Part shown: one piece after another, positions 4,317 to 64,000 of the stretch
How positions within the stretch are numbered: position 1 is the stretch's first letter
Layout of the letters: each line of letters begins with the position of its first letter
DNA from: Desulfosporosinus acididurans
GTDB lineage: Bacteria; Bacillota; Desulfitobacteriia; Desulfitobacteriales; Desulfitobacteriaceae
Length of the DNA: 64,000 nucleotides
Direction of reading: 5' to 3'
Assembly (NCBI RefSeq): GCF_001029285.1
Contig: NZ_LDZY01000017.1
Location: forward strand, 1-64,000
Program-made: the position numbers and the translations under genes
Notes under the pieces: model-generated
Told to the model about the DNA's origin: nothing
What the model saw: only the letters and a program-made list of their open reading frames with translations
Databases searched by the model: none

Positions 4317-5219
4317 TTAGATTCTCATTTCGGTCTTAAACACAATTACAGCCTTTCCTCCAACTTTAACTTGTTTCGGTTTTCCGTTATTCAATTTCAC
4401 AGTCACTTCAACAACGCCACTCCGACCTATTGCTTCTCCTTGTTCTGCTTTGAAGGAAAAGACAGAATCATTATGTTTTACTAAACCATGTTCCACTAAA
4501 TATGCACCAAGGGGACCATTGGCATTTCCTATCACTGGGTCTTCATTAATACCTATGGCTGGTGCAAACATTCTTCCATGTGTTAAAATTTCTTTTTCGC
4601 TTGAATCCATTGTAAAAACAAAATAGCCATTGCAATTGATTACTTTACTAATGTCGGCTAATGCCAGCATGTTTGGTGCTAAGGAATTCAATTTATCTTT
4701 AGTTTGAATTCCGATAATAACTTTGGAATGTCCAGTAGATACAATTTGAATTGGACATCTCTTATCTAATTCTTCTTCATTAATTTCCAAAGCCTTAAGT
4801 ATATGTTCTCTTTCTCGCCTACCGAGAGGCGGATAAAATTCGACATTTCCTTGAGTCATTACAACAGAGTAGTCATTCCCAACTCTATTTATTTCAACTG
4901 GTAAAATTCCGATTTTAATTTTATGTATCACGGTCGTAGAATCCAGGTTATATTCTAGAGCCCTAATGTAATGGGCTGCGATAGTGGCATGTCCACAAAC
5001 CGGAACTTCAACTTTTGGAGTAAAATATCTAAGCCTCACATCATGATCATCACTGTCAGGCGACAAGATAAATGCTGTTTCTGAATTATTCAGTTCTCTG
5101 GCAATTTGCAACATTTCTTTTTCTGAAAGATCATCTGCGTTTAAGACAACTCCAGCAGGATTACCTTTGAATTTTTCCGTAGTAAATGAGTCAACCTGAT
5201 AAATCTTTAGCGTTTTCAC
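4317..5219 (-). CDS. PhzF family isomerase-like protein
   Basis: The 300-residue protein begins with the PhzF signature (YQVDSFTTEKFKGNPAGVVL) and repeats the fold in the second half (ARDFAPAIGINEDPVIGNA in variant form as GRMFAPAIGINEDPVIG). The conserved catalytic Glu lies in NNSETAFIL, and CGHATIAAHY is a hallmark. PhzF relatives catalyse isomerisations such as in phenazine synthesis, but most genomic copies have unknown substrates and no phz genes are nearby. GTG 5219 is chosen as start because GGTGGAGGGG precedes it; the longer frame upstream lacks a site. Confidence 0.85.
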   Translation of the reverse strand: MKTLKIYQVDSFTTEKFKGNPAGVVLNADDLSEKEMLQIARELNNSETAFILSPDSDDHDVRLRYFTPKVEVPVCGHATIAAHYIRALEYNLDSTTVIHKIKIGILPVEINRVGNDYSVVMTQGNVEFYPPLGRREREHILKALEINEEELDKRCPIQIVSTGHSKVIIGIQTKDKLNSLAPNMLALADISKVINCNGYFVFTMDSSEKEILTHGRMFAPAIGINEDPVIGNANGPLGAYLVEHGLVKHNDSVFSFKAEQGEAIGRSGVVEVTVKLNNGKPKQVKVGGKAVIVFKTEMRI

Positions 5220-5279
5220 CCGTTTTCCCCTCCACCTATTTAACTTAGTCTCAGTGCATGGGATCTCCATAAAATTTGT

Positions 5280-5984
5280 TCATTTTGCTTTATGAATGAC
5301 AGCAATGCCACAGCTTAATATGAACAGGAAGAATAATACTTCCATAATCACCAATGTGCGGGATCCTATCGTCAGCGGTAGAATATCCCCAAAAGACCCA
5401 ACAGAAATATTAGTAGCACTAAAATAAATAAAGGAAAAATATTGATAAAAAATATTACTACCTAAATATTTAGAACTAAAGGATCCGGGGTTAATACGAT
5501 ACACATAAAAATACATAGATGAAAATAGCAATATAGCCGTAATAGCTCCAACAATTATCGTACTAAGTGTAAGCCAAAATTGCGGCATAACTAAAAAGAG
5601 GTTTCCAATAATATATAGGGAAATGCTTGCTGTTGCAATCAAAGTATAAATATTTACTAAAAATACAGCTTTTTGTGATGCGATTTTTTCATTAGCGCAA
5701 CTGCTTTTATTCGTACAATTTACTTCTGAACGTTCAAACACCTCATGCTCTGCCATCCCCTTATCTAAAGTGCACGATGAATCTAAAATAGTCACACTGA
5801 ATCCTAAAATACTTGCCCCCGCAATACCTATAATAGCTGGGGTTAAGAAACATCCATTGGGCCATAATAGTCTTGACCAATCTATCACAGCTGTTGTGGT
5901 TATTGTTTTTTTAGGGTATCCGTGGCTAAAATACATAGTATTTGGTTTAGCATAATAGCAATTCAAATGTGAGGATTTCGTCAT
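5280..5984 (-). CDS. two-TM ion-channel-like membrane protein
   Basis: The 234-residue protein has several membrane helices (about residues 45-70, 105-125, 135-160 and 205-230). Between the last two is a pore-loop-like segment, YFSATNISVGSFGDILPLT, followed by GSRTLVIMEVLFF. This resembles the K+ channel pore and inner helix (T-x-G-[YF]-G-D), but the filter reads SVGSFGD instead of TVGYGD, so selectivity may differ or be lost. The ATG follows GGAAGG. A Cys-rich loop (SCTLDK, NCTNKSSC) sits between the early helices. The call is at superfamily level only. Confidence 0.55.
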   Translation of the reverse strand: MTKSSHLNCYYAKPNTMYFSHGYPKKTITTTAVIDWSRLLWPNGCFLTPAIIGIAGASILGFSVTILDSSCTLDKGMAEHEVFERSEVNCTNKSSCANEKIASQKAVFLVNIYTLIATASISLYIIGNLFLVMPQFWLTLSTIIVGAITAILLFSSMYFYVYRINPGSFSSKYLGSNIFYQYFSFIYFSATNISVGSFGDILPLTIGSRTLVIMEVLFFLFILSCGIAVIHKAK

Positions 5985-6225
5985 AATTTATCCTTCCAAA
6001 ATGTTTGTTTATGCTCTATTATATTAAAGTACTTGTCAATATTTTCCATTTATTTTACTTAATTTTTAGCTTCCCAAACTCCAACTCTCCCGGCCAGACG
6101 ACTTCCATTTACAGACTCCGTAATATGTTCCCCACATTCCAAGCATTACTTTGTCCATTTCTAGCAAGCAAATAGTTCATTATCTTAACTTATCACCTTT
6201 ATTGATTACTGTCTCTTCTAATTCT

Positions 6226-6990
6226 CTATATTTTATCGTTAATCCACATTCTGATTAAGTCGTTGAATTTATCAGATGCAGTCCATGGATACGTATGGTC
6301 AGCCCCATTTATTATTATACCTCTTGATCTAGGAAGGGCCTCCACAATATCGGCTGCAGATTGCTTCATAGCTTTTGGTTCTTTTTCCCCAGCTAATATT
6401 AGAGTCGGGACGTTGGCATGTTTTAGTTCGAAAATAGGAATCTTTCCGAATTGATATAGTTGGTCGTATAACCTGTATAGCGAATCTGCAGTTAATCTTC
6501 TAAAATCGGCCATACAATTATCGATTGAGACTTTATCAAGAAACTTAAACTGCTTTACTATAAACGATTGCATCGCTTTATTTCTCAACATAGCTGCCGA
6601 GAGTTTATAGATAAATGGCGTATGGACAAGACTTAATAGATACATTGGTCTAGATAATGCACTGGCTACGACAGCATGATCCACTAAATCCGGTCGTCTG
6701 GCGAGGAGTTCGATTACTACTTTGCCTCCAAGAGAATGACCAACTACATGAGCTTTACGATGATTCGTTGTGTTTTCGATGAGTTCCGCTATGCGATCAG
6801 CACAATCTCTTAAATTAAACGGCCCTTCATTTATGCTTTTCCCGTGTTCTGGTAAATCAGGTACAAGACAATGGTAATCGCTAAAATGCTCAACCTGCTT
6901 ATGCCAAATCCATCCGCTTATTCCGCCGCCATGAATAAATACAATCGAAGGCATGCTTCTATTTCCGGTCTCTTCAAAATACATCGTCAT
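6226..6990 (-). CDS. alpha/beta hydrolase
   Basis: The 254-residue protein has the oxyanion strand motif IVFIHGGGISGW, the nucleophile elbow GHSLGG (Ser near residue 93), a late acid (LILAGEKEP) and a histidine in GADHTYPW. That is a complete triad for the hydrolase superfamily of esterases, lipases and peptidases. It has no signal peptide, so it is cytoplasmic. The substrate is unknown and it stands alone. Confidence 0.82.
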   Translation of the reverse strand: MTMYFEETGNRSMPSIVFIHGGGISGWIWHKQVEHFSDYHCLVPDLPEHGKSINEGPFNLRDCADRIAELIENTTNHRKAHVVGHSLGGKVVIELLARRPDLVDHAVVASALSRPMYLLSLVHTPFIYKLSAAMLRNKAMQSFIVKQFKFLDKVSIDNCMADFRRLTADSLYRLYDQLYQFGKIPIFELKHANVPTLILAGEKEPKAMKQSAADIVEALPRSRGIIINGADHTYPWTASDKFNDLIRMWINDKI

Positions 6991-7157
6991 CCCAATACCC
7001 TTCTGAGATAGTTAATACTATTTTATACCCCGCTTGCAATACAGATATCCCATTTTGGAAAGATTATTCCAATGAGCTGAGAAATACTTGTAGTCGTTTG
7101 GGAGACTTTGCAACAAATGTTTTCATTGATCCTGCCAAAATTCCGTAACCACAAAAA

Positions 7158-7212
7158 ACAAAACAAAAAGGCCGTAATCGAACAGAGTTATTCTGTACGT
7201 TTACGGCCTTAA
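7158..7212 (-). terminator. rho-independent terminator of the cadA unit
   Basis: On the minus strand a 10-bp perfect stem (AAGGCCGTAA at 7201-7210 read in reverse, with its partner at 7168-7177) is followed by TTTTTGTTTTG. It lies 40 bases after the ATPase stop. Confidence 0.85.
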
Positions 7213-7246
7213 AATCGACGCGATACGTTTGTCTCCTGTCAAAAAA

Positions 7247-9526
7247 CTATGACATATCGTTTAACGGATTGCCTCGCAAAGAAGTAGAATATCCACCACC
7301 CTCCGCCATTTGACCGGGAATTGAATATCTAATAATACGTGTTGCATTGAGAATAGCAAGTACGGCAACTCCCACATCGGCAAAAACAGCCTCCCACATA
7401 TTAACTGCACCAAACATCCCAAGTATTATAAATACTAACTTAATAATTAAGGCGAAAGCAATGTTTTGCCAAATAATCTTCTTGGTATATTGTGCTATAT
7501 CAATGGCATCAATAAGTTTACCAGGTTGGTCTTCCATCAAAACCACATCGGCTGCTTCAATCGCTGCATCAGATCCCAGACCGCCCATGGCAACGCCGAT
7601 GTCGGCGCGTGTTAAAACGGGAGCATCGTTAATCCCATCACCGACAAAAACAACTTTACCTTTACCGGACTGTTTCAAATAGCTTTCTAGCCAGGCTACT
7701 TTATGCTCAGGAAGCAAATCGGAATGATGCTCGCTAATTTGCAAATCATCTGCAATCGCCTGTGCCGCTTTTTCCTGATCACCTGTTAACATGACAGTCT
7801 TTATCCCGGCAGTATTTAGGCGGGCAATCGTTTCGCGCGACCCAACTTTAACCCGGTCAGCTATCAAAATATAACCTGCGTATGCTCCATCGATAGCGAG
7901 ATGGACCAAGGTTCCCGCTTCTTTATTTTCAATTGAAGGAACTTCAATTCCCGCTTGCTTAATAAGTTCTTCCTTTCCCGCTAAGACATATTGACCTTTG
8001 ATCGTTGCTTGAATCCCCTGGCCGCTGATTTCTTGATATTGATCGAGCTCATCGGCCTTAAGAATCTTCCCGAATTTTTCGCGAATAGACTTCGCTATGG
8101 GATGATTCGAATGAATTTCCGCTTTAGCCGCCAATTCGAGCAAGGTATTTTCCGTGAAACCTTGAACCGGGGCAATTTTCACTACCTGGAAGACTCCTTC
8201 CGTTAAAGTTCCTGTTTTGTCAAACAAAACAGTCCTTACATTGGTTAAAGCTTCGAGATAATTTGCTCCTTTAACTAAAATTCCCTGCCTGGAGGCCCCC
8301 CCAATTCCTCCGAAATAACCCAGAGGGACAGAAATGACGAGAGCACAAGGACACGAGATTACTAAAATCGTCATGGCCCGATATAGCCATTCACTGAAAA
8401 CTCCACCCATGAAGAGCGGCGGAATTAAAGCTATCCCTAAAGCGACGGCCACAACACCGGGGGTATAATACCTAGCGAACGTCGTAATAAATTTCTCTGT
8501 ATTTGCTTTACGTGAACTAGCGTTCTCTACCAAATCTAATATCTTTTGCACGGAGGAATCGGCGAATTCGTGCATAACTTTAACCGTCAAGACACCGGAG
8601 TTGTTGATCATACCGGCCAGAACCGTATCCCCGACGTTCACCTTACGCGGAACAGACTCCCCTGTTAATGCTGAAGTATCCACAAATGAGCTTCCGTGTA
8701 AAATCTCACCATCGAGCGGAACTTTCTCTCCTGGGCGGACTAGAATCTGCTGACCGACTAAGACATCTTCAGGATCGACTTTGGTGACGTCAAGTTGATT
8801 AAGCAAATTAGCATAGTCGGGACGAATATTAACCAAAGCCTTAATGGAACGGCGGGAACGGTCAGCCGCTCGGTTCTCTATAAGTTCACCGACAGAATAA
8901 AAAAGCATAACACCGACAGCTTCCGAAAGTTGGTGAATGGCTATTGCCCCAACTGTGGCCAGGGCCATCAAGAAATTCTCATCAAAGATCGCACCCCGGA
9001 TAATATTTCTTACAGCCTTCTCCAATACTTCGAAACCGACAAGTAAATAGGCACTCAAGTATATTGCATATTCCAGAACTTCCAAATTACTGTTATGCCA
9101 ATGGGAACCAAACACCAATCCAATCACCAAAAGAACTGCCGCAACTAGGATTGTAAGCAGCTGCTTGCGATCTAAATGGTCCTCGTTATCATTTTTAGTA
9201 TCTTCAAGAGCCCTTTTTTCTTTGATTGCTGCCAATTTGACACCTGGTTCAATCCCCCGCATTATTTCTTGGGCTTGATCAATGAGCATCGGAGGAAGGA
9301 AAACTGTCTTTGCAGCGTAATTAATGGTTGTTTCCCCAAAACCGGGCGTAGAACTCAATATTCGTTCCATCTTGGCGGCACAGTTTGGGCAAAACTCACC
9401 TTCAATTCGATATTTAAATCGCTCCTGATTGTTATGACTCTGGGTATATTTATGATCAGTATTAAGATTATTCTCGTGGTCATGATTATGCCCTTGGCCG
9501 CATTTTGGCGCTATTTTCTCTGTCAT
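7247..9526 (-). CDS. cadA: heavy-metal P1B-type ATPase (Cd/Zn/Pb efflux)
   Basis: The 759-residue cation pump has an N-terminal His-rich stretch, then a ferredoxin-like metal domain with FCPNCAAKME (CxxC). The membrane motif ISCPCALVIS is the metal-conducting CPC of Zn/Cd/Pb exporters. The catalytic DKTGTLT Asp, the TGES-type actuator (ALTGESVP), an HP motif (SNHPIAKSI) and the hinge GDGINDAP are all present. It should expel divalent soft metals at ATP cost. ATG 9526 is chosen for its GAGGGGG site; the longer frame adds 15 residues with no site. A CadC-like regulator lies just upstream, and a promoter with overlapping inverted repeat sits in between. Confidence 0.92.
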   Translation of the reverse strand: MTEKIAPKCGQGHNHDHENNLNTDHKYTQSHNNQERFKYRIEGEFCPNCAAKMERILSSTPGFGETTINYAAKTVFLPPMLIDQAQEIMRGIEPGVKLAAIKEKRALEDTKNDNEDHLDRKQLLTILVAAVLLVIGLVFGSHWHNSNLEVLEYAIYLSAYLLVGFEVLEKAVRNIIRGAIFDENFLMALATVGAIAIHQLSEAVGVMLFYSVGELIENRAADRSRRSIKALVNIRPDYANLLNQLDVTKVDPEDVLVGQQILVRPGEKVPLDGEILHGSSFVDTSALTGESVPRKVNVGDTVLAGMINNSGVLTVKVMHEFADSSVQKILDLVENASSRKANTEKFITTFARYYTPGVVAVALGIALIPPLFMGGVFSEWLYRAMTILVISCPCALVISVPLGYFGGIGGASRQGILVKGANYLEALTNVRTVLFDKTGTLTEGVFQVVKIAPVQGFTENTLLELAAKAEIHSNHPIAKSIREKFGKILKADELDQYQEISGQGIQATIKGQYVLAGKEELIKQAGIEVPSIENKEAGTLVHLAIDGAYAGYILIADRVKVGSRETIARLNTAGIKTVMLTGDQEKAAQAIADDLQISEHHSDLLPEHKVAWLESYLKQSGKGKVVFVGDGINDAPVLTRADIGVAMGGLGSDAAIEAADVVLMEDQPGKLIDAIDIAQYTKKIIWQNIAFALIIKLVFIILGMFGAVNMWEAVFADVGVAVLAILNATRIIRYSIPGQMAEGGGYSTSLRGNPLNDMS

Positions 9527-9575
9527 CACTTTTTTCCCCCTCTCGTCGTCATAACTCCTATGTCTATTCATACCA

Positions 9576-9628
9576 ACATATGTTTAATTGTTCATATGTA
9601 TTGTAACAAATATGCTCATTACATACAA
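9576..9628 (-). promoter_or_regulatory. cadA promoter with overlapping inverted-repeat operator
   Basis: On the minus strand, -35 TTGTAT (9623-9628) and -10 TACAAT (9600-9605) are 17 bases apart. Immediately after the -10 is a 7-bp perfect inverted repeat, ACATATG / CATATGT (9576-9582 and 9593-9599, 10-base spacer), covering the likely start of transcription. This placement suits repression by the adjacent ArsR/SmtB-type protein, which leaves DNA when it binds metal. Confidence 0.65.
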
Positions 9629-9637
9629 TAAGATTTT

Positions 9638-10045
9638 TTACCTATTTGTATGCTCGTTAATATGTTCAAGCCCTTGATTATACAAACTTAAAACGTGTTC
9701 ATCGTCCAAAGCATAATAAACCATTTTTCCCTCACGCCGATATTTTACCAGCTTATTGCCGCGCAGAACACGTAATTGGTGAGAAGTTGCAGATTGACTT
9801 AGGTTTAATAGTTCTGCCAAATCGCACACGCATAATTCAGCTTTGGCAAGAGCATCGATTATTCTCACTCGCGTCGGATCAGCCAAAGTTTTAAATAATT
9901 CGGCTAAATCATCAGCTTTTTCATAAAGGATAAGTTTATTATCAAAATTATTAATCACCTCTGGGTGTACGCATACAGTTTCACAGATGGGACTATCGTT
10001 TTCTCGTACAATAGTGTTAGAATCAAAATCTTTATCTGAATTCAA
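9638..10045 (-). CDS. cadC: ArsR/SmtB family metal-sensing repressor, CadC-like
   Basis: The 135-residue winged-helix repressor has LADPTRVRIIDAL and the recognition helix LNLSQSATSHQLRVL. Metal-sensing features match CadC: an N-terminal C21-x3-C25-x-H27 and a C72-x-C74 pair in ELCVCDL, the alpha-3N site for Cd/Pb/Zn thiolate binding. A TTG start follows GAGGAG. It precedes cadA by 111 bases that contain a separate promoter and inverted repeat, so it probably represses cadA and perhaps itself. Confidence 0.88.
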   Translation of the reverse strand: MNSDKDFDSNTIVRENDSPICETVCVHPEVINNFDNKLILYEKADDLAELFKTLADPTRVRIIDALAKAELCVCDLAELLNLSQSATSHQLRVLRGNKLVKYRREGKMVYYALDDEHVLSLYNQGLEHINEHTNR

Positions 10046-10616
10046 ACGTTTTCACTCCTCAAGCAATGCCTTTTATTTAATTATAGCAAATTTATACTTC
10101 TTCATTAAGAGAGCATGTTTGGATATTCCGGATAAACAATTTTTCTATCGGATATTTTTGTAAAAATATATTAAGCCAATCAACGAATTTATCGTCTTAT
10201 AAATATAAAATCAACCTTCGCAATTTGTCCATTAGGTAAAACGGGTTTCCTGGAAGGAAGTTGGTCAATCATGATTAATGCAAGTGAGAGTCCATAGATG
10301 ACCGTAAGCGGCACCCCATAATATGTTGGGTTGGCTATTAACCATCTCAACTATTTTTCAACTAACTTCTAAAATGAACATCGGTAGGCTTCTGTGGCCA
10401 CAGTTGCCGATCTGCTTTTAAGAATATCAATTGTTTAGAGTAACAATTTAGGATGAAAATTAACGATAAGGAATATTCCAATATCCATCCCGAAACAACT
10501 CCGTTAATTGTAAATATATAGAGTTAAAACCAACAACCCACTAATGATATCAGAGTTGTTACTATGGTATCCTTTATCATGTTCTCGCAAGAACAAATTC
10601 ATTCTTGGAGGTTAAC
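10046..10616. other. long intergenic region with a short open frame and a palindrome
   Basis: This region separates cadC from the NlpC gene. It holds a possible gene remnant at 10189-10350 (listed separately) and an extended imperfect palindrome at about 10379-10412 centred on CTGTGGCCACAG with outer arms ATCGG/CCGAT. I found no known riboswitch pattern. Confidence 0.4.
10189..10350 (-). CDS. possible 53-residue membrane peptide or gene remnant
   Basis: A TTG-initiated frame encodes about 53 residues with a hydrophobic core (YGVPLTVIYGLSLALIMID) and a tail QLPSRKPVLPNGQ. It has no clear ribosome site and a stop codon directly precedes the TTG. It reads like the end of a larger membrane protein. 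I do not recognise it; it could be a decayed gene or chance. Confidence 0.25.
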   Translation of the reverse strand: MRWLIANPTYYGVPLTVIYGLSLALIMIDQLPSRKPVLPNGQIAKVDFIFIRR

Positions 10617-11081
10617 ATGGTGAAGAAATTTACAACATTAATTATAGCAGTCTTAATCGGAGTTTTATCTTATGTTCCAGTAGCAAGTGCTTCTACTAAT
10701 TCAACTCGTTCCGCAGAAGTCCAGAAGGTTATCGCGAAATCTGAAAGTTATATTGGTACCAAATACGTTTTTGGTGGGACAAGCTATCAAGGTATTGATT
10801 GTTCCGGCCTAACAATGGATGCTTTCAAGGCAGTAGGCATCAATCTTCCGCGAACAAGTACCTATCAGTATAAAGTTGGAACTTTTACCCCAGCCAGCCG
10901 TCTTATACCAGGTGATTTAGTATTCTTTAGTTTTAATTCACGCCATACTGTAACTCATGTTGGAATTTATCTCGGTAACGGAAAATTCATTAATGCCACT
11001 AGTCACAAAGGCGTTACAATAAGCAGCTTTAACTCATACTGGTGGAAAGCATATGTTGGTGCCAAAAGAGTAATAAAGTAA
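10617..11081 (+). CDS. secreted NlpC/P60 peptidoglycan hydrolase
   Basis: The 154-residue protein has a signal peptide (MVKKF, hydrophobic core, cleavage after ASA). An NlpC/P60 domain follows, with catalytic Cys in GIDCSGLTMDAF and His in THVGIYLGNG; FINATSHKGV may hold the third polar residue. These enzymes cut D-Glu/DAP stem-peptide bonds in the wall. ATG 10617 sits behind GGAGG at 10607-10611. There is no SH3 or LysM wall-binding domain, so it is a minimal single-domain version. A strong terminator follows. Confidence 0.88.
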   Translation: MVKKFTTLIIAVLIGVLSYVPVASASTNSTRSAEVQKVIAKSESYIGTKYVFGGTSYQGIDCSGLTMDAFKAVGINLPRTSTYQYKVGTFTPASRLIPGDLVFFSFNSRHTVTHVGIYLGNGKFINATSHKGVTISSFNSYWWKAYVGAKRVIK

Positions 11082-11096
11082 ACCATGAAAAAGACT

Positions 11097-11126
11097 AAAA
11101 GCCGCCCTTGCAGTGGGGCGGCTTTT
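11097..11126 (+). terminator. terminator after the NlpC/P60 gene
   Basis: The 10-bp stem AAAAGCCGCC / GGCGGCTTTT begins 16 bases after the stop. A near copy occurs at 46497-46528. Confidence 0.8.
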
Positions 11127-11278
11127 AATGTGATTATTGTCAACTTCATTCAATCAAAATTGCAGCGAGAGGCAAAATTTATGAGCTTTTTCTCCCAATG
11201 TTATTAATAATTCACATTCTGTGAGAACCTTCGAAAGGTTTCATAAGTGTTTGCACATGAGCCAATCTACCGCCGAGT

Positions 11279-11998
11279 TTACTTTAACTCTATAGGTTCA
11301 TCGAAAATATGCTTCGCCTGAGATTCAGTAATAACACCATAATCAACCATACATTGAATAACCTGATTTTGTCGCTCACGAGCAAGCCCCATATTGATAA
11401 ATGGGTCATATACGCTTGGTGCATTGGGCAGTCCAGCAAGCATAGTAAGTTCTCCATCGTTTAATTGTGAAGGAGCTTTAGCAAAGTAAGTCTCTGCCGC
11501 TTGATACAGTCCATTAGCCCCATGTCCAAAGTAAATGACATTGGCATACAGTTCAAACGTTTCTTGCTTACTCAGCGTGTCATAGATACCAATAGCGTAA
11601 ACACTTTCCCGTAATTTCCATTTCAATGATTTTTTGATATCACTCAAGAGAGTATTATGAATTAACTGCTGCGTGATTGTGGACCCACCTTGTAGAGGCT
11701 GTTTGGCACTTAAATCCACCAATATTGCACGTAGAATTCCTCTGAAATCGATACCCTGATTTGTAAAGAAGCTCCGATCTTCAGTTGAGATCACAGCGTT
11801 CCTATACATTTCCGGTATTTCATTGTAAGTTAGATAACGGGTATGATGAACTTTTACTTGACTAACTACAATACTTCGCACCTGGTCAGATATTCGGTAA
11901 TCATAGGTAAAGTAAAACTTTAAACCAAACCAGCCAATACATAAAACCACGAACATGAAAATAAAAAGTCTAAACAAACCTTTAATGAATCGTTTCAC
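11279..11998 (-). CDS. monofunctional peptidoglycan glycosyltransferase (GT51)
   Basis: The 239-residue protein has one N-terminal membrane anchor (residues about 8-28) and a GT51 domain that polymerises lipid II into glycan strands outside the membrane. Diagnostic motifs are STEDRSFFTNQGID (catalytic Glu) and GGSTITQQL, with the second Glu in KWKLRESVYA. There is no transpeptidase domain, which makes it an MtgA-like enzyme. A GTG start follows GGAGG. Confidence 0.88.
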   Translation of the reverse strand: MKRFIKGLFRLFIFMFVVLCIGWFGLKFYFTYDYRISDQVRSIVVSQVKVHHTRYLTYNEIPEMYRNAVISTEDRSFFTNQGIDFRGILRAILVDLSAKQPLQGGSTITQQLIHNTLLSDIKKSLKWKLRESVYAIGIYDTLSKQETFELYANVIYFGHGANGLYQAAETYFAKAPSQLNDGELTMLAGLPNAPSVYDPFINMGLARERQNQVIQCMVDYGVITESQAKHIFDEPIELK

Positions 11999-12150
11999 GA
12001 ATTCCTCCGCTAAGCTTTATTTGAAAGTGGGGCCCATTAAGGAAACTTTACTCTCCAACTTCAGTAATAGCTTCCTTATGAGAGACAACTTAAAAACGAT
12101 TTCAAATATTATCTGTTATTATACGAAGATTAATCCGGTAAAAAATGTAA

Positions 12151-13557
12151 TTACTTCAATTTACCCTCTCCCGATTCAATTGGAATTCGAATGGTTACCA
12201 TACCCCCACCAGTCTCTGAAGAGTTTTCTGCCAATAGTCTTCCCTTATGCTGCACAGCAATGGAATTGGCAATAAATAACCCCATTCCATAATGGGCTTT
12301 TGACGAACGGCTTTTATCGCCCATATAAAACTGCTGTGTGGCATTTTTAAGGGCATCCTCCGAAAAACCATTACCAGAATCAACGACGCAGAATTGAACA
12401 GTATCGCCTGCAAAGCCAACATCGAAAACGATTGTCCCACCTTGCGGCGAAAAATCTACAGCATTGGCAGCAATATTCAAAATTGCCCGTTGCAGCAAAT
12501 CGGAATCTGCGTGCAAGCTTTGCGGAAGATTTCTGGTTTTAAAATCAAGAGACAACCTCTTGACCGCCATTAGTGCAGAAATCTGCTTATGGATTTTCGT
12601 AATAAAAGTACCTGTGTCAAGAATTTCTTTATGTAGAGAAAATCCCATTTCAGCCTTGGAAATTTCGATCAGCGTTCTGACGTATTGTTCCATCTGACGA
12701 GCACTGTCTATAATGTAGCCAGTGTAACTCTTCTGCTCTTCTGTCTGGTTTGTTTCAGACAGCAAATCTACATTTCCGCGAATAATGGTGATCGGCGTCT
12801 TAATATCATGCGCAAGTGCCGAGATTTGTTCCCGTCGGGTCTGCTCCTGATCCCACTGCTTTTGCAAAGACTCTTTTAGAGCTTCTTTCATTTTGTCTAT
12901 GGAATACAGCACATTGTCGATTTCATAGATTCCGCTCGATTCAACAGAAAAATTCAGATCATGATTCTGAATTTTTTCCGTTGCCTTTTCCAAACTGTGC
13001 AGTTTTTTCGTCAGTTTTCTTCCGAAGGAGGATGCTAGCAAAAAAACTTCCAATAGGAATCCGAGACCCAATACAAGTTCAAAAAGGATTTCCGGGGAGG
13101 GCAAAAACTGACGCAAAACCGGCGAGCTGAACTGCGCAAGCAGCGTATACCGGACAATGCAAATCTCATTTCGGCGGGGAATAGGTAAATAGTAATATAT
13201 AAAATCTCGGTCCCGTCCTTGCTTCTGCGTCAAATCCCATGCCATTGCAGCATCTTTTTTATTAAAATTTCCCGAAACGAACCTGCCTTGCCGTGTAAAA
13301 ACTCCATAGCTGCATGTTTCCGGTATCATATCCGGTGTGACAGTATTGCTGCTTGCAATCTTTTCTTTCATGACGGATAGCTGCACTTCCCCGTAGTTGG
13401 CCGGCAAAATAACGCTATTTGTCAGAAGTAGGTCGAAGATTGCGAAGAGCGAAACGACAAACAGAATTGTTCCAAGGCAAAAAACAGCTAGATACCCTGT
13501 GAAAAGTCGGCGCAGTTTTTGAGGTTGACGCCGATGTTCGTTATTTCTCAGCGCCAT
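12151..13557 (-). CDS. sensor histidine kinase of the peptide-immunity operon
   Basis: The 468-residue kinase has a first membrane helix near residue 25-45, an extracytoplasmic loop of about 110 residues, a second helix near 155-175, then HAMP. HisKA is ALAHDIKTPITII (phospho-His), followed by N box ILNIAANAVDFSP, G1 DSGNGFS and G2 YGMGLFIANSIA. The class is VanS/CprK-like. Its start overlaps the regulator stop by 10 bases. Together with the regulator and the ABC genes upstream it probably detects antimicrobial peptides or cell-envelope stress; the ligand is not readable. Confidence 0.85.
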   Translation of the reverse strand: MALRNNEHRRQPQKLRRLFTGYLAVFCLGTILFVVSLFAIFDLLLTNSVILPANYGEVQLSVMKEKIASSNTVTPDMIPETCSYGVFTRQGRFVSGNFNKKDAAMAWDLTQKQGRDRDFIYYYLPIPRRNEICIVRYTLLAQFSSPVLRQFLPSPEILFELVLGLGFLLEVFLLASSFGRKLTKKLHSLEKATEKIQNHDLNFSVESSGIYEIDNVLYSIDKMKEALKESLQKQWDQEQTRREQISALAHDIKTPITIIRGNVDLLSETNQTEEQKSYTGYIIDSARQMEQYVRTLIEISKAEMGFSLHKEILDTGTFITKIHKQISALMAVKRLSLDFKTRNLPQSLHADSDLLQRAILNIAANAVDFSPQGGTIVFDVGFAGDTVQFCVVDSGNGFSEDALKNATQQFYMGDKSRSSKAHYGMGLFIANSIAVQHKGRLLAENSSETGGGMVTIRIPIESGEGKLK

Positions 13558-57209: not shown

Positions 57210-58262
57210 TCAGCTAGTATGCAAGGTATCGTTGTATACAACCTTGGACACTTTGGCGATTATTGTTCTTGCATCGCCAGCTACAATACCACTAGACAAA
57301 ACGCATAAAACATAGGCACCCTTGGGAGTGAATATTATTCCGGCATCGTTCTCCACCTTATCAAGTTCACCTGTTTTATGTGCAACGACTGTTCCAGCAG
57401 GAAGCAAAAGTGGTATTTTGGTGTTATTTTCCTGTCTCTTTAAAATTTCAATCATCATTGGATCATACTTCTCACCGAGACATTCATTCTTATATAGTTT
57501 TGTTAAAATATTGCACAAATCGGCAGCAGAGGTATAGTTTTCTTTTCCTTCACCTTGAGCTTTAAAATCCATCATCTTCCTTTGAAGTACGGTATCAAGG
57601 CAGCCTAATTTTTGAACAGTAGTATTAATTTTGTCCATAGTAATTCGATCGATCAATATATTTGTTGCCGTATTGTCACTTTGCGTTATCATTAAGTAGA
57701 TTAGCTGGTCTATTGTTAAGACAGTACCGTCTTTTCTGCTTGATAAAGAGCCTGTTCCGCCTACTTTCATACTACTGGTAAGCGTTATTTCTTCATTTTC
57801 ATTAATCACCCCTTCATTAATTTGATTATAGGATTCAATCATGACAAATAACTTAATCATACTTGCTGCAGTCATTTTTTGGGGATTTATGACCAAATTA
57901 TTATTAGAAATCGTGTCTTGATAGGATATAGAATATGAACCACGTTCGTTCTGGATAATCTTCTTAATATCCCTTGTCAACTTATCAGTTGTACTCTTAA
58001 CGTTCTTGCCAGTGTTTGAAGTTTGTATATTACTTTTTTCCAGAGTCGATTCATTACCTTCGGAATCATTATCTGGACTGGACTGCTTGCCGGAATCAAC
58101 TGCGAAGTCCGTTAAATCAGATTTACTTGTTGCAGTCGCTTCTTTTTTTGTGACCTCATATGTAAATAATATAACAGTAAATACTAACAACAATAAAACC
58201 ACATATAAGGCAATTTTGATGATGCGATCGAATCTATTGCTATTTCTGGATTTGTTCAACAA
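57210..58262 (-). CDS. membrane-anchored class A beta-lactamase-fold serine hydrolase
   Basis: The ~350-residue protein has one N-terminal helix (IIKIALYVVLLLLVFTVILF), a Ser/Asp-rich linker, then a beta-lactamase fold. Counting from the longer frame start at 58283, S141-MI-K144 supplies SxxK, SDN is at 202-204 and KTG at 303-305, so it should be catalytically competent. The omega-loop Glu of true class A beta-lactamases (ExxLN) is not apparent, which favours a peptidase-like or binding role. The start is uncertain: TTG 58262 suits GGTGG and overlaps the kinase gene by 23 bases, so translation is coupled. Confidence 0.8.
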   Translation of the reverse strand: MLNKSRNSNRFDRIIKIALYVVLLLLVFTVILFTYEVTKKEATATSKSDLTDFAVDSGKQSSPDNDSEGNESTLEKSNIQTSNTGKNVKSTTDKLTRDIKKIIQNERGSYSISYQDTISNNNLVINPQKMTAASMIKLFVMIESYNQINEGVINENEEITLTSSMKVGGTGSLSSRKDGTVLTIDQLIYLMITQSDNTATNILIDRITMDKINTTVQKLGCLDTVLQRKMMDFKAQGEGKENYTSAADLCNILTKLYKNECLGEKYDPMMIEILKRQENNTKIPLLLPAGTVVAHKTGELDKVENDAGIIFTPKGAYVLCVLSSGIVAGDARTIIAKVSKVVYNDTLHTS

Positions 58263-60393
58263 CAGCTCTGGCCACCTTTCCAAATATTTCTGCTGCTGTA
58301 TCCTGGTCTACCTTTTCTCCCATTAAGACTAGGACAACTCGTCCTTTTGGAGTATTAATAATTCCAGCATCATTAAAAACGCCAGTTAAAATACCGGTCT
58401 GATGACTTATCAAGATATTATCAGGCAAGTATTTCGCCATTCCAGTATGATCGTTATTCCCCATAATACTGATAGAATATTCACAATCTTGAGCTGCCAT
58501 AATTCTATTTTCGGCTAGTAAACTTAGCAAAGATCCAATACCCCGAGGCGAACAGTAATTTTCCAATCCTCTATTCATGGCTTGCTGGTCCATGAGCTTT
58601 CTATTCAGTACGATACCATCAATATTTAAGGACCTCATCGTATTGTTGATCCTTTCCAGACCTCCAAGTTCATCAATCAGTAAATTTGCCGCGGTATTAT
58701 CAGAATAGCGCATCATTAATTCGAGCAATTGTTTAACGGATAGGCTTCTACCGCTATCTTGTCGAGTAAGTTTTCCTGTACCTCCGGCAATTCCTTGAAC
58801 GGTAATTGGTTTATCCAAGTTCAAATTACCATTAAAATGCTCAATAAGTACTGTGGTCATGATTGGTATATAAACTAACCCCCCTGCAACTTTTGAGTCA
58901 TTAGCTTCGCTATTCGCATATTCTTCCTTAGTCGTATTGTCACGGAGGTACATGAAATATGAACCTTTGGAGTCTTGACGTACGATGTTTTCTAATACAG
59001 AAAATACAATTCTATTACTTACTTGTTTATCTGTAATTTTTGGTGTAGAAATAGGTTGATTCCCGCTTTCAGACACGATTGATTGATTGTGATTAACCTG
59101 AGTATTGTTAGCTTGAATATTTCCCTGATAAGAGTCAACTATTCGATCAGCCGGTTTGGGCCTGTTGAATTTGATTATTCCATAAATCGTGGCAGGTATA
59201 ACCAAAATTAATGCAGCTACTAATACAATTATCAGCTTTTGACTGCCGTTAAGACTCGCAGGTCTCGTATTCTGATTGCCTCCACCTTCAGTTTGGCTAT
59301 TCTTGACAGGCGCTTCAATTTTCTGCTCAGACCGGTGACTTTCTAAGTCAATGTTCGTCGCCTTGTCTACCGTATTAGCAGGGCTGGTTCCTATGGAGAG
59401 TGCTTTGTTCAGTTCTGCTTTGAACTCATCGATATTTTGAAAACGATCCTGAGGTTGTATAGCTAAAGCTTTGAAGATAACTAATTCTACAACGGAGGGC
59501 AAGTTTACATCCTGATCCACTAAACTCTCAAGCTTAATACCTTGCATGCGATCAATCGATTCCGGAGGAGTTTTACCACTGAGTAATTTGTAAAAAGTTG
59601 CCGCTAAAGAGTATTCGTCCGTCCAAGAGCCTTGAACGCCTCTAGAAGTATACTGTTCAATCGGCGCATAGCCTGGTTTCAAAAGTACGGATAGGCTCTT
59701 GTTGACATCATTCACGATTTTTCGTGACGCGCCAAAATCCAGGAGCTTGACTTGAAAATTTTTCGTTATATAAATATTATCCGGACTAATGTCCCTGTGC
59801 AGGACTCCCTCAGCATGAACAAGGGAAAGGGCATCAGCAATAGGCATAATATAGGTTAGTGCTTCATCCAAGGGCATGCGACCTTTATTACTATTCTGTA
59901 AAAGCTGACTTAGAGAGATTCCTTCCACATATTCCATCACGATATAGGCAGTACCGTTTTCCTTAAAAAAGTTCATGATTGAGACAATATTAGGATTACT
60001 TTGAAAACGCGCCAGGGTCCTCGCTTCCGCCAGAAACTTTTCCAGGCCATATTCATAATCCTGTCCGTTTTGCCCACTAAAAACAGAAACGGTTTTATTA
60101 CCTAAAGCTCTTGTTCCTAAGCCGTCCGGCAAATACTCTTTGATGGCAACTTTTAGGTGTAATTCCTGATCCCAGCCCAGATATGTAATACCGAAACCTC
60201 CATGCCCTAAAACACGTCCGATCACATAGCGGTTGTTCAGTTCAGTACGCGGCGGTAGATAAAGCGGTGAATCAGACAGTGTACCTTCTACCCAATTACA
60301 ATTCAGGCATTGCTCATTTTGACCACGTAACTGCATACAACCCATGCAAAGATTGTTGGCATCATTAATAAAATCATTATTATTGTCCAACAT
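58240..60393 (-). CDS. Ser/Thr protein kinase with an outer pseudo-beta-lactamase domain
   Basis: The ~717-residue protein runs: N-terminal zinc ribbon (CMGC ... CLNC), eukaryotic-type kinase (GHGGFGITYLG, VAIKEY Lys, HRDISPDN, DFGAS), a linker, one membrane helix (LIIVLVAALILVIPATIYGI, about 386-407), then an outer domain of ~250 residues. The outer domain matches the serine hydrolase of the next gene (RYSDNTAANLLIDELGG; GIINTPKGRVV). In the SxxK position it reads GGLVY, Ser to Gly and Lys to Tyr, and KTG reads QTG. It is a sensor-like pseudoenzyme in place of PASTA repeats. ATG 60393 is chosen for AGGAG spacing. Confidence 0.88.
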   Translation of the reverse strand: MLDNNNDFINDANNLCMGCMQLRGQNEQCLNCNWVEGTLSDSPLYLPPRTELNNRYVIGRVLGHGGFGITYLGWDQELHLKVAIKEYLPDGLGTRALGNKTVSVFSGQNGQDYEYGLEKFLAEARTLARFQSNPNIVSIMNFFKENGTAYIVMEYVEGISLSQLLQNSNKGRMPLDEALTYIMPIADALSLVHAEGVLHRDISPDNIYITKNFQVKLLDFGASRKIVNDVNKSLSVLLKPGYAPIEQYTSRGVQGSWTDEYSLAATFYKLLSGKTPPESIDRMQGIKLESLVDQDVNLPSVVELVIFKALAIQPQDRFQNIDEFKAELNKALSIGTSPANTVDKATNIDLESHRSEQKIEAPVKNSQTEGGGNQNTRPASLNGSQKLIIVLVAALILVIPATIYGIIKFNRPKPADRIVDSYQGNIQANNTQVNHNQSIVSESGNQPISTPKITDKQVSNRIVFSVLENIVRQDSKGSYFMYLRDNTTKEEYANSEANDSKVAGGLVYIPIMTTVLIEHFNGNLNLDKPITVQGIAGGTGKLTRQDSGRSLSVKQLLELMMRYSDNTAANLLIDELGGLERINNTMRSLNIDGIVLNRKLMDQQAMNRGLENYCSPRGIGSLLSLLAENRIMAAQDCEYSISIMGNNDHTGMAKYLPDNILISHQTGILTGVFNDAGIINTPKGRVVLVLMGEKVDQDTAAEIFGKVARAVVEQIQK

Positions 60394-60432
60394 CATTCTC
60401 CTCTCACCCATTTTTCCATGTAGATAAAGCAA

Positions 60433-61194
60433 CTACGCCTTCACTTCAAACATGTTATCTTTCACTGCAAGGAAAAATCGATCGCCACTTTTAAGAATGA
60501 TTGCTTGCCCTTTTCCCAGCCGAACTCCCGAAGCCAGAAAAGTTCCATTAGACGAACAAGTATCTGTTAAGGTAAAACTGTTTTGCCTTGGATCATATTT
60601 TATAATACAATGCATACGGCTTATTGCTTCCGATGGGACAATGATATTACAGGAGAGCGGATCTCTTCCTATAATTAATCCTTTATCATCAATTTGAATC
60701 ATTTGGCCCGCATAATTCCCGGTAACTCCACATAAAATTGGTCGGACATTTTGTCCTTGGGGCATCTGATGTGGACGATTATTGACGACACTGCTGTTTT
60801 TGTTCAAGACCAAGGTTCCCAATAAGACATCATGAAGGGCTTGTTTCCTTTCCGTAAATGCAGCCATCACAAAACCCGCACATAAGGGAACCAAGGATAG
60901 TACTTTCCCGAAATAACGCCCGGTTGCCACTCCAAAGGAAATACGTTGCCCAAACAAATCTGTAACGATAATTCCTAGAGCTAACTTTCCTAATGTAGCT
61001 TGTTTCGCAGAGCTTTCCATAAGAGCAAAGTATAACCACCCAACGATAATGTTCAAGAGCAACAGCAGCTGCCATCCTCCGAGGGCAGTCGCTAACCAAA
61101 ATGGAACCGTTAAGAGGATCAGTATGGTACTATAAATCGCATTATCAATAAAATATGCTAAAAGGCGTTTCCAAAAGTTGGCATTAACTTCCAA
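60433..61194 (-). CDS. RDD-FHA membrane protein
   Basis: In this ~253-residue protein the first half is an RDD domain with about three to four helices (FWKRLLAYFIDNAIYST; TLGKLALGIIVTD). The C-terminal FHA domain has GLIIGRDPLSCNIIVPSEAISRMHCIIKYD and SSNGTFLASG, the phospho-Thr-binding pattern. It could hold phosphorylated partners at the membrane. TTG 61194 with GAGGTG ahead is preferred over GTG 61203. Confidence 0.85.
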   Translation of the reverse strand: MEVNANFWKRLLAYFIDNAIYSTILILLTVPFWLATALGGWQLLLLLNIIVGWLYFALMESSAKQATLGKLALGIIVTDLFGQRISFGVATGRYFGKVLSLVPLCAGFVMAAFTERKQALHDVLLGTLVLNKNSSVVNNRPHQMPQGQNVRPILCGVTGNYAGQMIQIDDKGLIIGRDPLSCNIIVPSEAISRMHCIIKYDPRQNSFTLTDTCSSNGTFLASGVRLGKGQAIILKSGDRFFLAVKDNMFEVKA

Positions 61195-61247
61195 GAAAAT
61201 CACCTCGTCTCTTCATTTTGGAATGTTATTCAATGACTATTAAGAGC

Positions 61248-62021
61248 TTAACACCCAATAATTAGGATAGTGACATTATCCTGATGCTGGATATTCTTAC
61301 GAAGTGTTTTATCTAGCAATTTATCCGCAGCTTGTTGAGGTAAAGCGGACATCTCCTCAGCTATCTCTGCTTCACTTAATGTGCCAAATAATCCATCACT
61401 GCACAAGAGAAGTTTGTACCCTTGTTTAAGAAAAATAGGCTTTTGACAAACGTCGAACCTAAAATTATCACGGACACCAATATAACTGTACAAATAATGA
61501 CGTTGGTCGTTTTTCATAGCCTCTTCTTCTGAGATATATTGTTCGGCTACTAATTTTTCCAAATTCCTGGCAAAGGTGAAATCACTGGTAATTCTAACCA
61601 ATCGGCCTTGACACCAGAGATATATTCTGCTGTCACCGGTTCCAACCCAATATAATAATCCTTCCTTGACCACAGAGGCAATCAAAGTACAACCGGTATC
61701 GACATTAACCTCCAGCCCTAATTTAGCAACTGCTTGGTTGGCGGCGTCGATAGCCTTAGCCAGCCGGCCGGGAACAGAATCCTGAATGTTGGACAATTGA
61801 TAGCTATCCACAAAAGTTTCTATAGCAATCGAAGCAGCTGTTTTCCCCATGTCGTGCCCGCCCATACCGTCAGCCAAAACAGCTAAGATACCATTATCTT
61901 GAATGGATTGTGCATCAAAAAAATCAGAGAAGTAGAAGGCATCCTGCTGTTCTTCCCTAGAACCAATATGCTGCGCATTTCCGGGTGTTAAATAAATTTT
62001 CGGAACGTGATTAACCCGCAA
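61248..62021 (-). CDS. PP2C-family Ser/Thr phosphatase
   Basis: The ~257-residue protein has metal-binding motif VLADGMGGHDMGKTAA, SREEQQDAFYFSD near the start, then LLLCSDGLFGTLSEAEI and HQDNVTILIIG. It removes phosphate from Ser/Thr and presumably opposes the kinase in this operon. TTG 62021 sits eight bases after AAGGAG; GTG 62030 abuts that site. Confidence 0.88.
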   Translation of the reverse strand: MRVNHVPKIYLTPGNAQHIGSREEQQDAFYFSDFFDAQSIQDNGILAVLADGMGGHDMGKTAASIAIETFVDSYQLSNIQDSVPGRLAKAIDAANQAVAKLGLEVNVDTGCTLIASVVKEGLLYWVGTGDSRIYLWCQGRLVRITSDFTFARNLEKLVAEQYISEEEAMKNDQRHYLYSYIGVRDNFRFDVCQKPIFLKQGYKLLLCSDGLFGTLSEAEIAEEMSALPQQAADKLLDKTLRKNIQHQDNVTILIIGC

Positions 62022-62033
62022 CTGAAACACTCC

Positions 62034-63512
62034 TTACATTACAATTCTATACATCATCTCAGGTACCCGAATTAAATCGCCATTCTGCAAGGCACAGCTT
62101 CCCTGCACTGGAGTTCCATTGACATATATCTCTCCCGGTATCTGACTATGGATTACGATCATTTCATCGATAACCGAAAAATGTCCAATAATCTTTTTGT
62201 CGTAACCAACTTGTAATGCACATTCAGGTGCAGATCCAATCAGGGGATTCAGATCAGCTTGGATCTGGATCACTTCACCTTTATTTGGACCCTGCAACAC
62301 TTCCAACCCGATACTGAAGGAAATTCTTCCTTGCGAATTTTGGACAAGCATGGTTGTGTTTCTTGGTTCATTGCCGTCATTAGATTCTGTTTTATTCCGT
62401 TGTGATTCGCCATTAGGCTTTTTAAATAACCACATCATTACAAGGATAAGGAACAAAGTGATGAGAATAAAAGGAAGTAAAATCATCGCCGCGCCAAAAT
62501 AGCTAGTTCTGAGTTCTTGCTTAGGCTTCGCCAGAACTTGGCTGGAGTTGTCTTTATCTGTTAAGGCAGGCACAGCCGTGAATTTGGCGGCTTGCCGGAT
62601 TTCTCCATGGCTGTCTTTAAACGCTACATTAATAACAGCCTGTTGATTAAAGACCTTGAAATTTTCACAGCGTAGATTAATGACCTTGCATTTCTCGATC
62701 GACGATTTAAAATTAGAAAACAACTCTTTTCCGCTCGCGCTGATGAAGTATTGACCACCCGTCTTCTGGGCTATTTGATCCGCAGCGACCTTGAACTCTT
62801 GTTCCAGCGAGTTTTTGTTATTCATGATCAAGGTATAAACAGGCAAGCGGTCAATATCTACATATTTTTGGGCATCTTCACTGCTAAAGCTGTCCCCATC
62901 AACTCCACCGTCAGTAATCAAGACAACTATACGCTGTTCAGGAATATCCTTAGCGGTCCGACCAATCTCAATAGCGTCACGTATCCCAGAATATAGATGT
63001 GTCCCTGTCCCACTACCCACAGAAATGCTATTTTGAATTGTTTTAATAGTGCTTTGTGAAGAATCGCTCACTGCGAAATCCTTGATTGTTTCTAATTTAT
63101 TGCTAACACCAAAGACTGCAAGCTGATCGTTCGGTCCAACAAATTCAAACAATTTTTCCAGCATAACCTTGAGTTGACTTGCCCGGTTTTCACTTCCCAT
63201 AGAAACAGATGTGTCAACAAGTATAAGGTAAGACGTATTTACCGTGCCTCCATTATCGGATTTAACATCCTGAATATCCGTTAATTGGGTAGGAGTATCG
63301 TTAATTTTGATCTTCAAGGCATTTTTAAGCTGGGCATTATCCAGATTGATGTTATCCAAGCGTACAAACAACTTTAAGTCCGGCAATTTCGAGTCGACCT
63401 GTGTAATATTAAAATTAGAGTCGTTGGCAGCCTTAGTAACAGCAGGTTCTAAAAGGATTAGGCTAATTAACAGTACAACAATAAGGCTGCTTACTGCTTT
63501 TTTTAGTCCCAT
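62034..63512 (-). CDS. membrane VWA-FHA protein
   Basis: The 492-residue protein has a signal peptide (AVSSLIVVLLISLILLEP), an outer VWA domain with a complete MIDAS start (ILVDTSVSMGS, later TDGGVDGDSFS), one membrane helix (MILLPFILITLFLILVMMWLF, about 340-360), and an FHA domain inside (NPLIGSAPECALQVGY; EIYVNGTPV). FHA is degenerate in the Ser/Arg core. It may bind an outer ligand by metal and relay to the phospho-network. It overlaps the upstream FHA gene by 10 bases. Confidence 0.85.
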   Translation of the reverse strand: MGLKKAVSSLIVVLLISLILLEPAVTKAANDSNFNITQVDSKLPDLKLFVRLDNINLDNAQLKNALKIKINDTPTQLTDIQDVKSDNGGTVNTSYLILVDTSVSMGSENRASQLKVMLEKLFEFVGPNDQLAVFGVSNKLETIKDFAVSDSSQSTIKTIQNSISVGSGTGTHLYSGIRDAIEIGRTAKDIPEQRIVVLITDGGVDGDSFSSEDAQKYVDIDRLPVYTLIMNNKNSLEQEFKVAADQIAQKTGGQYFISASGKELFSNFKSSIEKCKVINLRCENFKVFNQQAVINVAFKDSHGEIRQAAKFTAVPALTDKDNSSQVLAKPKQELRTSYFGAAMILLPFILITLFLILVMMWLFKKPNGESQRNKTESNDGNEPRNTTMLVQNSQGRISFSIGLEVLQGPNKGEVIQIQADLNPLIGSAPECALQVGYDKKIIGHFSVIDEMIVIHSQIPGEIYVNGTPVQGSCALQNGDLIRVPEMMYRIVM

Positions 63513-64000
63513 TTAAACTCCTCCCCGCAAAACGGGATGAACAGCAAGCGCGACTTACCTATTTCAATCGCATCATACGCATGCAATTCCGTAACCGCCA
63601 AAACCGGTGCGTCATTAATGTAGATAAGATCGCGCCCATCTCCTCCTTGGATAAAGAAGCGATTATGCTTAGGGTCATAAATAATGACAGCGTGTTTTTC
63701 GCGGGAGATTGAATCGTCACCCTTGATGGAGATATTGGTTTGTCCTCGGCCGATTGTATTCTGGCCGCTCATGATCTGATAATCCTGTCCTTTACTAGCG
63801 CCTTCTACACAGACGAGCCAGCCGACGACGGGATCAATCCCAGTCTTCGCTTTAATAATGCCAACTGTTTTCTCTCCGCGACTTGGAGTTCCGTTGGTAT
63901 TAAGCGCCCGGGTAACGGGAATATCGCTTGCCCCATTTGGGACATTTGAAGCTGTATGTTGGGTTTTGGGAATATCATTAACTGGAGAAGGGTTATTGAT
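63503..64000 (-). CDS. FHA-domain protein, 5' end outside the window
   Basis: The frame stays open to the window edge. Visible are a Ser/Thr/Asn/Pro-rich linker, then VGWLVCVEGASKGQDYQ, an FHA start, and NTIGRGQTNISIKGDDSISREKHAVIIYD, the full pThr-binding core (GR, S, H). An internal ATG (63772) would split the FHA domain and is not the start. It is the upstream gene of the phospho-signalling operon. Confidence 0.82.
   Translation of the reverse strand: MNNPSPVNDIPKTQHTASNVPNGASDIPVTRALNTNGTPSRGEKTVGIIKAKTGIDPVVGWLVCVEGASKGQDYQIMSGQNTIGRGQTNISIKGDDSISREKHAVIIYDPKHNRFFIQGGDGRDLIYINDAPVLAVTELHAYDAIEIGKSRLLFIPFCGEEFKWD

Follow-up and report, generated by a model that had tools for sequence, protein, structure and literature searches.

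How bacterial receptor kinases sense the cell wall is an open question, and the case for such sensing rests largely on PASTA domains. An operon of Desulfosporosinus acididurans, at the end of the window analysed here (bases 1–64000 of contig C17, NZ_LDZY01000017.1, of a 4.64 Mb genome), raises this question in another form: it encodes a Ser/Thr kinase whose outer domain has a penicillin-recognising fold that is catalytically dead, and a live copy of that fold is encoded beside it, which provides a clean test case for peptidoglycan sensing by a pseudoenzyme. Our analysis supports the view that a conserved pseudoenzyme forms the outer domain and that the kinase to which it is fused has kept its catalytic motifs.

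The kinase outer domain and its lost catalytic residues

Both the outer domain of the kinase and the product of the last gene of the operon match PF13354 in Pfam (E-values of 1.6e-41, over positions 2–212/214, and 3e-62, respectively). An AlphaFold2 model of the outer domain (predicted local distance difference test score, pLDDT, 92; predicted template modelling score, pTM, 0.91) finds its best solved matches in PBP-A, LRA-5, 4ewf and 4hes, with Z scores of 33–35, so that by model and by profile the domain has the class A beta-lactamase/PF13354 fold. The proposal made in an earlier sequence-only reading of this DNA, that the two proteins share one fold, is in agreement with these results. PBP-A of Thermosynechococcus (tll2115) and LRA-5, which are among the closest solved structures, are class A-like but lack the Glu166 that such proteins normally have (Leu158 in PBP-A and Val166 in LRA-5), and the list of structure matches also contains 6pq8, a class A S70G enzyme complexed with clavulanic acid.

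The residues on which catalysis depends in class A enzymes (Ser70-x-x-Lys73, Glu166 and Lys234-Thr-Gly) are replaced in the outer domain by Gly518, Tyr521, Leu613 and Gln678, so that GLVY stands where the last gene has SMIK, and QTG (678–680) where it has KTG. The domain does retain the SDN motif (577–579), RKxMDxxA in the omega-loop and the last two residues (TG) of KTG. Among 50 other PF13354 sequences aligned as comparators, every one that spans the relevant positions has the catalytic residues: 37 of 37 for Ser70 and Lys73, and 44 of 44 for Lys234. The alignment bears out the earlier description of the motifs (SxxK lost to Gly and Tyr, KTG changed to QTG, SDN kept). The one other fused copy, from a second species, shows Gly, Tyr, Leu and Gln at the same places.

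This second copy is found in a congener (G005, locus L003, JAUZPJ010000162.1), in which the fused kinase is likewise followed by the same second gene. The possibility, raised together with the original observation, that the fusion arose from an assembly join can be rejected, since this independent assembly has the same kinase/enzyme pair. Taken domain by domain, the products of this gene pair are 71–86% identical between the two genomes. Within the fused protein, identity is 86% for the kinase domain, 74% for the outer domain and 38% for the linker, and the ratio of non-synonymous to synonymous differences between the two species (pN/pS) is 0.12 for the kinase domain, 0.26 for the outer domain and 0.65 for the linker; judged from these ratios, the outer domain is under purifying selection. 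Close to the motifs, within six alignment columns, 87% of the residues agree in the two kinase copies, compared with 70% elsewhere (p=0.014), a pattern that the intact enzyme shows as well. Together with the pN/pS values this suggests that the region of the dead pocket is being kept, for which two copies alone provide modest evidence.

The kinase part carries all the motifs of a Hanks-type kinase, namely the Gly loop, the VAIK lysine, HRD and DFG, and is predicted to be active. Based on hydropathy, there is one transmembrane helix at residues 401–419, which should place the C-terminal 310 residues of the protein outside the cell. The kinase scores 164.9 bits against the NCBIfam model of PASTA kinases (NF033483), for which the cut-off is 450, and Pfam finds no PASTA repeats in it. 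The listed TTG start (60390–60432, minus strand) may be too early, as the ATG of the congener's gene aligns near residues 13–14. The genome also encodes a separate kinase of 600 amino acids which, as read from its sequence, has PASTA-like repeats and which directly follows a penicillin-binding protein gene (L148, G000:C12:29047-29811); the system of the fused kinase would for this reason add to PrkC-type sensing rather than replace it. An anti-phage function was considered and rejected, since the PADLOC matches (PD-T4-6, MAD6) lie mostly over the kinase domain, a generic one, and the operon holds nothing else that was recognised as part of those systems.

The operon and the adjacent enzyme

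The features of the operon are collected in Table 1. All its genes in the window lie on the minus strand with intergenic gaps of −44 to +46 bases, and they are transcribed in the order trypsin-TM-FHA, zinc-ribbon FHA, VWA-TM-FHA-like, PP2C, RDD-FHA, kinase-TM-PF13354 and TM-PF13354, where TM stands for transmembrane helix. The start of the operon, comprising the trypsin-TM-FHA gene and the N terminus of the zinc-ribbon FHA protein, is outside the window. With Pfam E-values of 2e-32 for the kinase, 5e-21 for RDD, 1e-16 for FHA, 5e-12 for PP2C and 5e-10 for VWA, and with the coordinates given, the earlier observation of FHA, VWA-FHA, PP2C, RDD-FHA, kinase and hydrolase genes on one strand is confirmed.

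Table 1. Positions of the genes and domains of the operon on contig C17 (aa, amino acids)
Feature	Position	Strand	Remarks
PF13354 serine enzyme, extracytoplasmic with TM anchor, 357 aa	57210..58283	−	S141xxK144, S202DN204, K303TG305, Met237; predicted PBP-A-like
Receptor Ser/Thr kinase with pseudo-PF13354 ectodomain	58240..60432	−	730 aa from the listed TTG
Kinase outer pseudo-PBP-A/class A beta-lactamase domain, aa 480–730	58243..58995	−	
Single transmembrane helix, aa 401–419	59176..59232	−	boundary of kinase and outer domain
Kinase domain, aa 69–345	59398..60228	−	GHGGFG, VAIK98, HRDISPDN, DFG intact
Kinase N-terminal zinc ribbon, aa 29–45	60298..60348	−	CxxC-x9-CxxC, common to the kinase family; sequence reading
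RDD (multi-pass membrane)-FHA protein	60433..61203	−	FHA motifs canonical: GR, SRxH, SSNGT
PP2C phosphatase	61248..62030	−	metal motifs DGMGGH, SDG, DN; sequence reading
VWA-TM-FHA-like protein	62034..63512	−	outer VWA aa about 81–278, TM 342–360, cytoplasmic degenerate FHA-like domain
Zinc-ribbon (C..GHYFD)-FHA protein	63503..64000	−	N terminus beyond window, C17 to 64105
Trypsin-TM-FHA gene	64152–65516		outside window

The FHA domains of the RDD, zinc-ribbon and trypsin proteins carry GR together with SRxH or SRExH. That of the VWA protein scores poorly at the sequence level (Pfam 0.079) and has IGS and GHFS in place of GR and SRxH (62034–62387, minus strand), the phosphothreonine-binding Arg and Ser thus being lost; its model, of moderate quality (pLDDT 71), nevertheless resembles an FHA domain, the best matches being those of GarA/OdhI with a Foldseek E-value of about 6e-5. 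This degenerate FHA domain is a second pseudo-domain within the same operon.

In the adjacent PF13354 enzyme the SxxK, SDN and KTG motifs are intact and Met237 aligns with PBP-A Leu158, the equivalent of Glu166, an equivalence marked by the solved L158E mutant of PBP-A. The protein thereby shows the PBP-A-like motif pattern, and at 100.9 bits against the NCBIfam class A model (bla_class_A, cut-off 200) it does not qualify as a class A beta-lactamase. PBP-A acts as a DD-carboxypeptidase/endopeptidase on muropeptides and has no class A omega-loop glutamate (PMC11189452). Because of the missing Glu166 and the resemblance to PBP-A, muropeptide processing seems likelier than beta-lactam hydrolysis, and we predict that the enzyme works as a DD-peptidase/penicillin-binding protein and not as a beta-lactamase. 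Of the active beta-lactamase-fold paralogue originally proposed, the intact catalytic motifs stand, whereas the Met at the Glu166 position points to a PBP-A-like protein rather than a beta-lactamase. Its gene and that of the kinase share 44 bases in both genomes. At the protein level the enzyme is about 31% identical to the outer domain, and the tree does not join the two, the pairs standing apart on long branches; a simple tandem duplication is therefore unsupported, if still conceivable given the poor resolution of the tree.

A rare fusion within a widespread module

Within the class, 2 of 83 genomes carry a fusion of a kinase with PF13354, namely those of this species and its congener, and a search of 398 genomes of the phylum with an outer-domain profile gave no further kinase fusion. 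Two of the genome searches made overlapped, G406 and G124 being of one class. Several candidates were rejected: a long frame in G316 (625 amino acids) encodes no kinase and has SxxK intact, those in G399, G438 and G389 have no kinase match, and in G460 and G461 the weak PF13354 match near the kinase lies on the opposite strand and is thought to be a D-Ala carboxypeptidase. A scan of contigs with short exact peptides rules out close relatives only. On plasmids, tblastn with the kinase gave no record that reached 80% coverage of the query, and the matches listed extend over the kinase part only. Related kinases were seen on large replicons outside Bacillota (NZ_OV024759.1 and NZ_CP031159.1 of Deinococcus; NZ_CP007794.1 of Azospirillum), the gene of the Deinococcus relative being annotated as a right-handed beta-helix protein.

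The kinase belongs to a wider family with an N-terminal CxxC...CxxC, and a tree of the kinase domains places the fused pair amid its zinc-ribbon relatives with no well-supported closest one. FHA and PP2C genes are present at the locus in 17 of the 21 genomes that have a zinc-ribbon kinase; of the remaining four, G494 and G471 are on short contigs, G406 has FHA only, and in G005 the contig ends inside the RDD-FHA gene. We define the module as an N-terminal CxxC...CxxC kinase, a Zn-FHA (zinc-ribbon FHA) protein with C..GHYxD, a PP2C and a trypsin-TM-FHA protein in one locus. All four components occur in this genome (G000) and in G241, G360, G466, G477, G475, G460, G461 and others, frequently arranged as PP2C, trypsin-TM-FHA, PP2C, Zn-FHA, kinase, X-TM-FHA. 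What varies is the C-terminal domain of the kinase, which may be DUF5050, MORN, a beta-helix, PASTA with RCC1 or Flg_new, DUF6273, ANF_receptor/Peripla_BP_6, SBP_bac_1, Cu_amine_oxidN1 or an internal FHA domain; PF13354 adds another plug-in to this set of interchangeable domains.

In several loci (L025, at 9535–10365 and 10517–12241, L022, L026, L114, L115, L139 and L140) two to three kinases of the family stand side by side, often with differing C-terminal domains, which looks as if sensors had multiplied within one module. At L139 (G052:C48:20001-40000) a PP2C/Zn-FHA/PASTA-kinase module (2280–2928, 4952–13168) lies beside two WXG100 genes, an arrangement that suggests a connection with type VII secretion for the lineage of that class member.

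By the test set in the original proposal, the rarity of the fusion weakens the idea of a general system, although its linkage to FHA, VWA and PP2C genes is seen wherever the neighbourhood is visible. The claim that no system of this composition has been described holds only for the fusion, as the open full-text literature searched (subscription papers and preprints lay outside its scope) contained no description of the fusion or of the module; the rest of the operon represents a module that recurs across Bacillota.

Possible functions and relation to known systems

The most economical reading, and the likeliest at about even odds, is a receptor kinase whose dead PBP-A-like ectodomain engages peptidoglycan stem peptides without covalent attachment. 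In the mechanism that we infer, the kinase spans the membrane, the catalytic domain facing the cytoplasm and the dead domain the exterior, where the latter would most likely bind a stem peptide of the D-Ala-D-Ala type or a related wall fragment reversibly. Occupancy would be passed through the transmembrane helix to the kinase as changed dimerisation, the kinase would then phosphorylate threonines on partner proteins that the Zn-FHA, RDD-FHA and trypsin-TM-FHA proteins may recognise, and PP2C would reset the phosphorylation state. The adjacent transmembrane-anchored enzyme probably trims the same peptides and could in this way set the supply of ligand. A sensor role is supported by the ligand-binding folds (ANF_receptor/Peripla_BP, SBP_bac_1, PASTA) that relatives of the kinase carry in the same position. 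Three points weigh against it: Lys234, the normal contact of the substrate carboxylate, is lost, so that binding of stem peptides could be abolished; the MORN, beta-helix and Cu_amine_oxidN1 domains of some relatives suggest adhesion or spacing over ligand sensing; and with the fusion in two species only, the conservation rests on one comparison. It is possible, if somewhat doubtful, that the pseudo-PBP ectodomain is specifically a non-covalent reader of D-Ala-D-Ala stem peptides that is coupled to a PBP-A-like editor, as one of many sensor plug-ins in a widespread, seemingly undescribed transmembrane FHA/kinase system of Bacillota.

The structural-looking C-terminal domains just named would also fit an outer domain that merely anchors or spaces the kinase in the wall and has no regulated ligand, signalling being driven by the trypsin-FHA and VWA-FHA proteins; the purifying selection, the conserved surround of the pocket and the known ligand-binding folds in other relatives make this quite unlikely. 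Pseudoenzymes often partner active paralogues, and the dead domain might instead find its partner outside the cell in the intact PBP-A-like enzyme, or in some other enzyme of the wall, which the kinase would sense or regulate in place of a small ligand. The adjacency and overlap of the two genes in both genomes, and the presence of the enzyme with every fused kinase found, agree with such a pairing; however, a dimer interface inherited by tandem duplication finds no support in the divergence and tree described above, and conservation is highest near the pocket motifs, so that we consider it unlikely. Very improbable, in our view, is a sensor that binds intact beta-lactams reversibly and triggers a wall-stress response through the kinase, as a non-covalent counterpart of BlaR1/MecR1. 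The class A-like fold, the S70G complex with clavulanic acid and the retained SDN motif and omega-loop are consistent with this idea, but without Ser70, Lys73 and Lys234 the affinity for beta-lactams should be low, the neighbouring enzyme lacks Glu166 and falls below the class A cut-off, and no blaI/blaR-like gene was noticed beside it.

Among known systems, the PASTA kinases PrkC/PknB/Stk1, which are believed to read muropeptides or lipid II, resemble the stem-peptide receptor proposed here in having a cytoplasmic Hanks kinase, one transmembrane helix, a C-terminal outer domain and a cognate PP2C; the fused kinase differs in its lack of PASTA repeats, its N-terminal zinc ribbon and its dead PBP-A-like outer domain. 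BlaR1 and MecR1 likewise use a penicillin-recognising fold as an extracellular sensor, with an acylatable Ser/Lys and signalling through a metalloprotease, whereas the fused protein has lost the nucleophile and has a kinase for its output, which sets it outside that group. PBP-A is a working DD-peptidase (PMC11189452), in contrast to the outer domain with its loss of Ser70, Lys73 and Lys234. The PpkA-PppA-Fha1 genes of the type VI secretion system (T6SS) bring the same kinds of phospho-signalling genes into one locus, and linkages of kinase, PP2C and vWA genes have been reported (eLife 2020, PMC7159879). Unlike in the T6SS locus, the FHA domains here are joined via transmembrane helices to an outer trypsin, VWA or Big_2 domain, the hosts are Bacillota and no T6SS genes were seen, and the module is also distinct from the GTPase/vWA-MoxR systems of PMC7159879. 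The comparison indicates a broad Bacillota kinase family with interchangeable C-terminal, mostly outer, domains and transmembrane-linked FHA partners (trypsin, VWA, Big_2), and the fusion is a rare version, unreported in the literature searched, of this widespread signalling operon with swapped kinase outer domains.

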